Shown here piece after piece: positions 51,618 through 54,722 of a DNA stretch of 64,000 nt. The DNA is taken from contig DASUWY010000034.1 in assembly GCA_036378175.1 (NCBI GenBank), positions 1 through 64,000 of the forward strand. Reading direction: 5' to 3'. The DNA comes from Thermoleophilaceae bacterium. Its GTDB lineage: Bacteria; Actinomycetota; Thermoleophilia; Solirubrobacterales; Thermoleophilaceae. The notes beneath the pieces were generated by a model that was not told the origin of the DNA, searched no databases, and saw only the letters and a list, made by a program, of their open reading frames with translations. Every line of letters begins with the position of its first letter. Position 1 is the stretch's first letter. Position numbers and translations under genes: made by a program.

Positions 51618-51691
51618 GCCACGTTTCTGCAGGAAATCTCGCACTTTTGTCCATTGGGGCCCAGGTGGGTACCGAGATAGGCAATTTCCGT

Positions 51692-51815: not shown

Positions 51816-52712
51816 ATGAGCGGCATCCGCACGAACGCAGCTGCAGAGCTACTCGGGGTCAGCCCGAACACACTACGGAGCTGGGAACGACGCTTCGGCT
51901 ATCCCAAGCCACGGCGCACGTCCGGCGGTCACCGGCAGTACGACCTCACCGAGCTCGAGGCGCTGCGCCGTGCGCTGCTCGAGACGCACAACATCTCCTC
52001 GGCGATCGAGGTGGCCCGTCAGCGCGGCGAGGGCCCGACCTCGGCGGCGCGGCTGGTTGAGGCCTTCGACCGCTTCGACGAGACGCTCGCCGACCGCGTG
52101 ATGGAGGAGAGCCTTGCCGTGCGTTCCGTCGAGCGCTCGGTTGAGGACCTGATGCTTCCGGCGCTCGAGATGGCTTCCGGGCGCGAGGGGCGCGAGGCGG
52201 AGTTCGAGCTGGCGCTGCGCTGGGCCACCGGCTGGCTGCACGCCGCCCGGCGCGTCACGCCCGCGGCCACGCGTTCTGAAGGCGCCCTGCTGTTCGACTC
52301 GAGCCCGCGGCTCGACCTCGAGTCCCTGCACGTGCAGGCGCTCGAGCTGGCGCTCCGCCGTGGCGGCTTCCGCGTTCTCCTTCTCTCGATGACGCTCGCC
52401 CAGGAGCGGCTGTCGCGCGCCATGCGCGCACTCGATCCAACCGCGCTCGTGGTGTGCGGCAGCGGCGCCACGCTCGACGTGGTTGGCCGGCTCGTCTACG
52501 CCGTGCGCCACACCGGCTCGGCCGCGCGGGTGTACGAGTACCGCGAGGCGATGCCGGTCTCCGGCAGCCACGCCATCCCGTCGCTCGGATCGCGTCCCAC
52601 GGAGGCGACCGAGAACATGAAGGCGATCGTGGATGGGCGGGGGCTCGAGGTGGCCGAGGAGCTCGGGGCCACCGAGCTCGCTCCGGCGCCTCCTGCGCGC
52701 GCTCACGCGTAG
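51816..52712 (+). CDS. MerR-type regulator with B12-binding-like C-terminal region
   Basis: A 298-residue regulator. The N-terminal MerR helix-turn-helix reads RTNAAAELLGVSPNTLRSWERRFGYPKPRRTSGGHRQY. The middle helical domain (about 95-165) and Rossmann-like part (about 170-270, SPRLDLESLHVQALELALRRGGFRVLLLSM) resemble CarH/LitR photoreceptor regulators. The cobalamin-contact W...EH and DxHxxG motifs are not conserved (the helix reads RWATGWLHAARR), so light sensing through B12 is doubtful. GGGAG precedes the ATG. Its TAG stop starts a heptamer array. Confidence 0.85.
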   Translation: MSGIRTNAAAELLGVSPNTLRSWERRFGYPKPRRTSGGHRQYDLTELEALRRALLETHNISSAIEVARQRGEGPTSAARLVEAFDRFDETLADRVMEESLAVRSVERSVEDLMLPALEMASGREGREAEFELALRWATGWLHAARRVTPAATRSEGALLFDSSPRLDLESLHVQALELALRRGGFRVLLLSMTLAQERLSRAMRALDPTALVVCGSGATLDVVGRLVYAVRHTGSAARVYEYREAMPVSGSHAIPSLGSRPTEATENMKAIVDGRGLEVAEELGATELAPAPPARAHA

Positions 52713-52737
52713 GGCATAGGGCATAGGGCCTAGGGCC
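52710..52737 (+). repeat. Heptamer array at the 3' end of the MerR-like gene
   Basis: Four 7-base units: TAGGGCA, TAGGGCA, TAGGGCC, TAGGGCC. The first TAG is the stop codon of the MerR-like gene. TAG triplets occur at 7-base steps and so block all three forward frames. Confidence 0.9.
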
Positions 52738-52834
52738 TTTGTCCTATTGAGACCTCGACCCCGTGCGCCTCATGCTCGGGGGTGGCCCGGTCCGGAATCC
52801 GACCTTGCACGGTGGGGTGGCGCGGCTACTCTGG

Positions 52835-52860
52835 AGCTATGTCGGGTACCCGACATAGCT
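52835..52860. promoter_or_regulatory. Perfect 26-base palindrome upstream of the CheB-like gene
   Basis: Two 13-base arms, AGCTATGTCGGGT and its exact complement, meet without a spacer and end 14 bases before the ATG at 52875. It could be an operator for a dimeric regulator or fold into a hairpin that hides the start region. An ATG inside it (52839) is therefore an unlikely start. Confidence 0.7.
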
Positions 52861-52874
52861 GCGTTCCGTTCGAC

Positions 52875-53477
52875 ATGGTTGCTGTGGTCGGTTCGCAGGG
52901 AGCGCTACCCGCGTTTCGCACGATCCTTGGCTATCTGCCGGCGAGCTTCCCCGCCGCGGTGGTGTTCGACCTTCACAGACGCCAGTCGAACGACTTCGCG
53001 GCGGCCCTGCTCGCGAAGGCGAGCCACCTGCCGGTGGAGTCCGTGAGCGAAACCACCCGGCTCCGGCCCGGAGCCGTGCTCGTCACGCCCCCGGACCGCC
53101 AGACAGTGCTGACGGAGACCGAGCTGATGCCCACCTCCACGCGCGGCCGAGATCGGATGGGCCATCCTTTCGCCGATCGCCTGCTCACCACTGCCGCGGC
53201 CGCATTCGGACCCCGGCTCATCTGCGTGGTCCTATCGGGACGGCTGGCGGGCGGTGCCGAGGGCGTGCGGGCGGCGAAGCAGTGCGGCGCGCGCGTTCTC
53301 GTACAGGATCCGGCCTCGGCCAGTGCCCCATCGATGCCGCGCGCCGCGCTCGCCACGGGCTGCGTGGACTTCGTGCTTCCGCCGGAGTCGCTGGGCGCGG
53401 CCCTCGCGGCATTGTGTGCGGCACCCGGAGCCGCCGAGCTGTTCCGCGTGCGGCTCAACACAGCAGTGCACATGTGA
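52875..53477 (+). CDS. Orphan CheB methylesterase-like protein, probably lacking the catalytic aspartate
   Basis: A 200-residue protein consisting of a CheB-type domain only, with no receiver. The nucleophile region AVVGSQGALPAFRTIL and the His region VVFDLHRRQSNDFA align with CheB. The usual VVLTGMGxDG segment reads VVLSGRLAGGAEGVRA, so the catalytic Asp is replaced. No chemotaxis genes are nearby. It may bind a partner rather than hydrolyse glutamyl esters. The palindrome upstream implies specific regulation. Confidence 0.78.
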   Translation: MVAVVGSQGALPAFRTILGYLPASFPAAVVFDLHRRQSNDFAAALLAKASHLPVESVSETTRLRPGAVLVTPPDRQTVLTETELMPTSTRGRDRMGHPFADRLLTTAAAAFGPRLICVVLSGRLAGGAEGVRAAKQCGARVLVQDPASASAPSMPRAALATGCVDFVLPPESLGAALAALCAAPGAAELFRVRLNTAVHM

Positions 53478-53525
53478 GTCGAAATTTTCCGGCTGCGCCT
53501 CATCCGGTTCGGGTAGCCGCCGGCT

Positions 53526-54245
53526 GTGGCAGACGCATCACAGCTTGCGCAGAACCGCCTGCTGGCGTCCCTCGACGGCGGGCTGGCCGCCATCGCCCCA
53601 GACTTCGAAGCGGTGAGCCTCGGGGTCAGGGACTCCATCTACGGCCAGAACGAGCCGATCGACCACGTCCTCTTCCCCACGTCTGGCGTGTACTCGATGG
53701 TTTCGGAGATGGAGGACGGGCGCGGGGTGGAGGTGGCGACCGTGGGCAACGAGGGGATGCTCGGACTGCCCGTGTTCCTGCAGGGCGCACTCACGAGCTC
53801 GCACCACGCCTTCTGCCAAGTGCCCGGGGATGCGCTGCGGATGCCGGCCGCACGCTTCGACGAGATCGTGACGGGCGGCGAACTGCCCGAGCTGCAGACC
53901 GCGCTGCGCCGGTACACGCAGGCGCTGATGTCGATGATCGCTCGCGCCGTGGCGTGCAACGGGGTGCACAGCGTCGAGCAGCGTGCCTGCCGCTGGCTGC
54001 TACAGACGCACGACCGGGTGGGAAGGGACGAGTTCCTGCTCACGCAGGAGTTCCTCGGCCAGATGCTCGGCGTGAGCCGCGCATCGGTGAACGAGGTGGC
54101 CCGCGAGCTTCAGCGGCAGGAGACGATCGACTACGCGCGGGGCCGCGTGTCGATCGTGGACAGGGCGAGGCTCGAGTCGTGCGCCTGCGAGTGCTACTTC
54201 GTCGTTCGGGACGAGTACGAGCGGTTGCTCGGGCCGGGCGCCTGA
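53526..54245 (+). CDS. Crp/Fnr-family transcription regulator
   Basis: A 239-residue protein. The N-terminal cyclic-nucleotide-binding-like beta barrel contains HVLFPTSGVYSMVSEMEDGRGVEVATVGNEGMLGLPVFLQ. The phosphate-cassette arginine of cAMP binders is not evident. The long dimer helix is followed by the HTH LTQEFLGQMLGVSRASVNEVARELQRQETIDYARGRVSI. A C-terminal CACEC cysteine cluster is a family feature and could bind metal or sense redox. GTG 53526 is the likely start. Confidence 0.88.
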   Translation: MADASQLAQNRLLASLDGGLAAIAPDFEAVSLGVRDSIYGQNEPIDHVLFPTSGVYSMVSEMEDGRGVEVATVGNEGMLGLPVFLQGALTSSHHAFCQVPGDALRMPAARFDEIVTGGELPELQTALRRYTQALMSMIARAVACNGVHSVEQRACRWLLQTHDRVGRDEFLLTQEFLGQMLGVSRASVNEVARELQRQETIDYARGRVSIVDRARLESCACECYFVVRDEYERLLGPGA

Positions 54246-54278
54246 CGCGTTCCGGCTCGATCTGACCGGAGCGCGTCC

Positions 54279-54284
54279 TAGCAT
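54279..54284 (+). promoter_or_regulatory. Candidate -10 for the MarR-family gene
   Basis: TAGCAT ends 9 bases before the ATG at 54294, one base more than the usual spacing in this window. Confidence 0.4.
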
Positions 54285-54293
54285 CGCCCGGCG

Positions 54294-54722
54294 ATGCTCT
54301 CCGTCGGCGATGCTCTGGCTCATCGAGCGCTCGAGGCGCTTGTGCGAGCGGAGTCGTCGGTGCGGCGCCAGCTCGCGGCCGACCTGGAGCGGCGCGGCCT
54401 CTCCGCCGCGGGATTTTCAGCGCTGGTGGTTCTGACCACGGCGGGCGGGGAGCTCGAGATGCGGACGCTGCGGCGGCGGCTCGGCTGGACCAAGGCGAGC
54501 ACCAGCGAGATCTGCTCCACGCTCGAGGCGCGCGGGCTCGTTGCGCGGCGGCGCGTGGCGGGTGACCGGCGCGCGGTGCTTCTGCGCATCAGCGCCGAGG
54601 GCGTCGAGCTCGTGGAGGAGCTCTTCCCGGACCACACCGCACGCGTGGCGCGCACCTTCGCGGCGCTCGACGACGCGGAGAAGCGCTCGCTCGCCGAGAT
54701 CTGCCGCAAGCTGGCGGCCTAG
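54294..54722 (+). CDS. MarR-family transcription regulator
   Basis: A 142-residue winged-helix protein. The recognition helix region is MRTLRRRLGWTKASTSEICSTLEARGLVARRRVAGDRRAVLLRISAEG, including the DxR wing motif (GDRRAV). Flanking helices form the dimer interface. It has no adjacent transporter gene; ileS follows 28 bases downstream in the same direction. Confidence 0.9.
   Translation: MLSVGDALAHRALEALVRAESSVRRQLAADLERRGLSAAGFSALVVLTTAGGELEMRTLRRRLGWTKASTSEICSTLEARGLVARRRVAGDRRAVLLRISAEGVELVEELFPDHTARVARTFAALDDAEKRSLAEICRKLAA

Follow-up and report, generated by a model that had tools for sequence, protein, structure and literature searches.

A perfect palindrome over the predicted leaderless start of an actinobacterial cheB-crp pair, a probable operator of its Crp/Fnr-family regulator

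In the 64-kb stretch of DNA analysed here (the window), the predicted start of a cheB-crp gene pair lies within a perfect palindrome of 26 bases. The palindrome is probably the operator of the unit's own Crp/Fnr-family protein, and the unit would be negatively autoregulated at a predicted leaderless promoter. The palindrome accompanies the gene pair, is absent where the pair is absent, and is conserved at the level of individual bases with a distant cheB-crp pair in Nonomuraea gerenzanensis.

Results

The palindrome (52835–52860, no strand assigned; AGCTATGTCGGGTACCCGACATAGCT) consists of two 13-base arms that meet without a spacer. Sequence, coordinates and zero spacer were all verified as given in an earlier sequence-only reading of this DNA, and the placement between a MerR-type gene (51816–52712) and a Crp-type gene (53526–54245) agrees with the gene map. 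The palindrome is the window's sole perfect one without a spacer whose arms are 9 bases or longer. Among 75 simulated sequences of 64 kb (25 each for Markov orders 1 to 3), palindromes with 10-base arms appeared at a rate of about 0.3 per window, and arms reached 12 bases at most, never 13. Extrapolated by hand from these simulations, the expected number of palindromes with 13-base arms is about 0.007 in one window and about 0.4 in the whole genome of 4.29 Mb. A further 346 kb of the own genome, taken from outside the window, contain one zero-spacer palindrome with arms of 12 and two with arms of 10, and none with arms of 13. The palindrome is thus unusual for a 64-kb window, but its earlier description as far beyond chance is too strong genome-wide; with about 0.4 expected per genome, length by itself is no proof of function. 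The segment at 52851–52862 in the right arm (CGACATAGCTGC) recurs 20 bases on as CGACATGGTTGC (52871–52882; 10/12 bases). This copy is a possible third half-site, although it encodes a conserved FD, so that coding may explain the repeat. Elsewhere in the own genome, an inverted repeat with 16-base arms and a 1-base spacer (GCAACAAAGGCTTGCTGAGCAAGCCTTTGTTGC) is located at C10:93401–93433 (L190 13401–13433).

The cheB reading frame (52839–53477, forward strand) has an in-frame ATG at 52839, inside the palindrome, and an alternative in-frame ATG at 52875. A −10-like element of the form TANNNT, TACTCT (52827–52832, forward strand), has its last base 6 bases and its first T 12 bases before ATG 52839. 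PMC3160421 describes a TANNNT signal some 12 bases ahead of the start as a mark of leaderless genes, a pattern typical of high-GC groups such as the Actinobacteria. No TANNNT element is found at the corresponding distance from ATG 52875. Two observations make 52839 likely the better cheB start: TACTCT ends 6 bases before this ATG, and the start of the Nonomuraea homologue coincides with it, with TAGGCT in the equivalent position. The sequence-only reading had placed the palindrome 14 bases before the ATG at 52875, a start that was probably wrongly assumed, given the likelier ATG within the palindrome itself. The position of the element and the published rule together predict a transcription start at or next to ATG 52839, and the palindrome would then span about −4 to +22 of the predicted transcript, with its centre near +9. 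A weak −35-like hexamer, TTGCAC (52805–52810, forward strand), is tentatively assigned 16 bases before the −10 element. Neither a terminator nor a sigma-70 promoter was found by consensus scan.

The palindrome is present as a single copy in its own genome, and its 20-base core, with the centre left free, had no match in the 231 other genomes searched in the order, which is the outcome of the search of genome and relatives that the sequence-only reading had proposed. The only same-genus genome (G223) is colinear with the window on both flanks at 86–91% DNA identity, up to and including the MerR gene on one side and starting with the MarR gene (54294–54722, forward strand) on the other. It is missing the interval 52783–54256 (forward strand), which holds the palindrome, cheB and crp; in its stead are about 380 bases that carry a small reading frame of secreted type, and the palindrome was not found in the G223 genome. 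The MerR gene (forward strand) is found in 18 of the 31 genomes of the family at E <1e-100, own genome included, and the MarR gene in 9 of the 18 family loci scored; outside the own genome, both occur without the palindrome. Homologues of the Crp-like gene at E 1e-20 are limited to 3 of the 232 genomes of the order, again with the own genome included, and the nearest CheB within the order outside the own genome is 41% identical. As pair and palindrome are jointly missing in G223, the MerR gene is widespread in the family, the Crp-like gene has few homologues in the order and the nearest other CheB there is 41% identical, the palindrome belongs to the lineage-confined cheB-crp pair and not to its conserved neighbours. 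Lack of conservation in orthologous regions had earlier been named as part of what would refute the sequence-only interpretation. The palindrome is indeed absent from the sister interval, since the sister genome lacks the entire cheB-crp pair at this place, but it recurs at the distant pair in Nonomuraea.

Several other features of this neighbourhood were recorded. The MerR-MarR interval (window 52712–54294; L040 2394–2897; L041 2382–3694) holds different lineage-specific genes in each genome: cheB-crp in the window, the small secreted-type frame in G223, and a large opposite-strand gene in G222. Directly after the MerR gene (52712–52752), short GGGCATA-like tandem repeats are followed by TTTGTCCTATTGAG, an arrangement kept in G223; a similar sequence, TTTTGTCCATTGGGG, is found before the MerR gene at 51645–51665 and could represent a shared promoter or operator motif. 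A transposon end was considered and rejected, as no matching repeat is present at the other end of the unique interval. In viral contigs, neither an exact motif match nor a relative of the CheB alignment was found.

The distant cheB-crp pair was found in a plasmid collection in which 364 records had a Crp protein match, 19 of them examined as loci. In the best-ranked record, N. gerenzanensis LT559118 (L174), a CheB gene lies directly before the Crp gene; among the first 7 plasmid records examined, no other matched the window CheB. The CheB and Crp proteins share 44% and 46% identity, respectively, with those of the window. The start regions read TAGGCT-GGTGCT-GTGTCAGGTTCCGTACATAGC in Nonomuraea and TACTCT-GGAGCT-ATGTCGGGTACCCGACATAGC in the window, with 19 of 24 bases identical over the site, which covers the Nonomuraea GTG start and keeps 8 of 12 palindromic pairs. 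Both loci thus share gene order, a TANNNT element 6 bases before the start codon and a site over that codon, but the Nonomuraea pair differs in its imperfect palindrome, its GTG start and its upstream neighbour. The upstream gene is TetR-like by reading of the sequence, and neither a MerR nor a MarR gene was seen beside the pair. Between the TetR-like gene and cheB, at L174 1719–1734, lies a perfect 16-base palindrome (TTGGGCGATCGCCCAA), likely a TetR-type operator.

The resemblance of the two start regions was compared with a codon null, in which the Nonomuraea peptide was fixed and codons were sampled according to the codon usage of three genes from the Nonomuraea locus. The probability of at least 19 matches was 5e-5, that of at least 8 palindromic pairs 0.019, and that of both together 2e-5. 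Only two codons ending in A or T (GGT and CAT) are identical among the 94 conserved CheB residues, start codon excluded, and both lie within the site. Identity per 12-base block is 9, 9 and 7 of 12 from −12 to +23, against 3 to 6 of 12 in other blocks; beyond about −12 to +21 the identity is at background level, so that the conserved block begins with the −10 element and stops where the palindrome stops. Since a 19/24 match has a probability of about 5e-5 given protein and codon usage, the comparison indicates that the site is constrained as DNA and not as protein only.

A 24-mer consensus was built from the window and L174, and its absence elsewhere is therefore a one-way test. Of 119 CheB loci, 114 were scored (one was skipped for an incomplete upstream region, and four were without a CheB match at E 1e-5). 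The 24-mer was found at 2/114, both of them the consensus sources, which leaves L174 as the one locus besides the window with the site; the next best locus reached 18/24, and random segments up to 17. Some perfect palindromes occur near other CheB starts, all with unrelated sequence. A third genome has adjacent but divergent cheB and crp genes (L160), with no such site in the stretches scanned. No further tandem cheB-crp locus was found in the samples of the order, class and phylum, the divergent pair being seen in G671 only. In the classes to which G671 and G610 belong (39 and 27 genomes, respectively), counted for Crp matches alone, 1 and 5 genomes had such a match, nearly all of these known already. 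A literature search by title found no publication on a CheB-Crp pair, which is no proof of absence.

The palindrome contains the CRP-box-like core TGTCG-N6-CGACA (52840–52855, no strand assigned). Two-fold TGTNN/NNACA half-sites in the TGT-N10-ACA geometry of CRP/FNR operators are found in both the window and Nonomuraea. The core also resembles the operator consensus of CooA, a member of the CRP/FNR family, which is given as TGTCGGCNNGCCGACA in PMC545781; the two have in common a 16-base core, the TGT-N10-ACA geometry and 12 of the 14 specified bases. The spacing was further counted upstream of 34 other Crp homologues, including 12 plasmid loci that contributed to this count only; L174 was set aside since its site precedes cheB. 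TGT-N10-ACA occurred upstream of 6 of the 34, whereas the frequency in the remaining sequence of these loci predicts 1.6 (Poisson ~0.006, calculated by hand), and when spacings of 4 to 18 were compared, N10 was the most frequent (6), with N14 close (5). A regulon is not visible in the own genome, either with TGTCRN6YGACA (3 matches versus 3 in the control) or with the core at up to 3 mismatches (8 versus 5). The missing regulon does not argue a CRP/FNR-family operator away, as a single-target autoregulator would look alike. Only two TGTCRN6YGACA matches lie elsewhere in the own genome, and the total including the palindrome equals the control; one of them, TGTCAGATCGCTGACA (C71:15532–15547; L201 1501–1516), is located 32 bases upstream of a secreted-type reading frame. 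A shared recognition-helix residue was rejected as proof of common specificity, because other homologues carry the residue too.

The Crp-like protein (53526–54245, forward strand) has both a cNMP_binding fold and a Crp-type helix-turn-helix (HTH_Crp_2) above the Pfam cut-off. CRP proteins that bind cAMP carry an Arg and a Glu in the phosphate-binding cassette. Alignments to mycobacterial Crp chains show Leu at the position of the cassette Arg and no conservation of the Glu, which makes cAMP an improbable ligand on this sequence evidence. The CheB protein contains the methylesterase domain (PF01339, E 2.7e-38) and lacks the receiver domain that a chemotaxis CheB combines with it, and the NCBIfam CheB subfamily models score far below cut-off. 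Within 53230–53270, the window CheB reads LSGRLAGGA where Nonomuraea reads LTGRLDDGA, with an Asp kept in Nonomuraea and lost in the window. We take this Asp to be at the catalytic position, after Salmonella CheB; if so, the window protein may be a pseudoenzyme without esterase activity.

Discussion

The arrangement of these features suggests how the site could work. We infer that the cheB-crp unit would be transcribed as a whole from the promoter with its −10 element at 52827–52832, ending 6 bases before ATG 52839, to give a leaderless mRNA with the operator centred about 9 bases inside it. If the Crp-like protein occupied TGTCG-N6-CGACA as a dimer, it would block RNA polymerase at the start, which would place the unit under negative autoregulation. 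According to PMC4117774, binding of Mycobacterium tuberculosis CRP near the start goes with repression; given this precedent and a site centred at about +9, negative autoregulation appears the likelier mode.

The sequence-only reading had offered a neighbouring regulator as one possible owner of the operator, and that idea is supported, with the Crp-like gene favoured, since no other local regulator is shared between the window and L174. The MerR-type and MarR-type genes also adjoin the site, but they are poor candidates because both are conserved where the palindrome is absent, and neither accompanies the Nonomuraea pair. MerR promoters carry their dyad between −35 and −10, whereas the dyad here is downstream of the predicted −10 element. 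Control by either of these two proteins is accordingly highly improbable. Control of cheB-crp could instead come from a regulator whose gene lies in another part of the genome, such as a dimer of the TetR or MarR type. TetR-type repressors also fit long perfect palindromes over a start site, base-level conservation names no binder, and the Crp regulon is invisible in the own genome. The CRP spacing, the near identity to the CooA consensus (PMC545781) and the presence of the Crp-like protein alone at both loci count against such an outside regulator, which is unlikely on balance.

The same reading had alternatively proposed an RNA hairpin over the start region, which at the 5′-end of the cheB mRNA would hide the AUG and set translation. 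The window 26-mer does fold at −17.8 kcal/mol (z −6.2), and RNA from the ATG onward still makes a 7-pair stem. The Nonomuraea site, however, folds weakly (−8.3 kcal/mol) and its predicted leaderless RNA forms no hairpin at the 5′-end (z −0.35), while the conserved GCT before the start codon would lie outside a leaderless transcript and Rfam gives no match up to E 1. The hairpin is thus poorly supported, and action as RNA is quite unlikely. It is very improbable that the perfection of the palindrome reflects only chance or local mutation bias over a conserved start, made up of a promoter edge and the code for an N-terminal MSGxxHS, with no operator at all. The genome-wide expectation extrapolated above and the partial pairing in Nonomuraea are in keeping with such an origin, but both the pairing and the base matching exceed the codon null, and the conserved block and the palindrome end at the same place. 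An operator of the Crp-like protein remains the preferred reading.

A broader proposal, tentative and rather doubtful, is that cheB-crp represents a horizontally spread, self-regulating module outside chemotaxis. It would pair a CheB domain that has no receiver, and in this species seemingly no catalytic acid, with a repressor of the Crp type that does not depend on cAMP. The operator of this repressor would be embedded in the start codon of a leaderless gene, so that one short sequence would act as promoter edge, operator and N-terminal code. The absence of other chemotaxis genes alongside the CheB-Crp pair hints at an undescribed signalling module. For a bacterial group in which regulation is sparsely documented, the analysis moves from an isolated palindrome to a specific proposal that can be tested, in which an uncharacterised Crp-family protein is matched with its operator. 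Operator, promoter edge and coding start would fall on the same bases of a predicted leaderless gene, in an arrangement conserved between distant actinobacteria. If the site is a standard autoregulatory operator only, its interest is local.

Among known systems, the site would be a further example of an ordinary operator type. The CooA sites described in PMC545781 lie at −64 to −187 from the translation starts of the coo operons and are activating, whereas the window site covers the cheB-crp start. The closer parallel in position is M. tuberculosis CRP (PMC4117774), with which the window shares a CRP-family protein, a palindromic site at the start and repression as the effect expected from that position. 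The window differs from it in its half-site, which is TGTCG and not the classical TGTGA, and in the Leu that takes the place of the cassette Arg.
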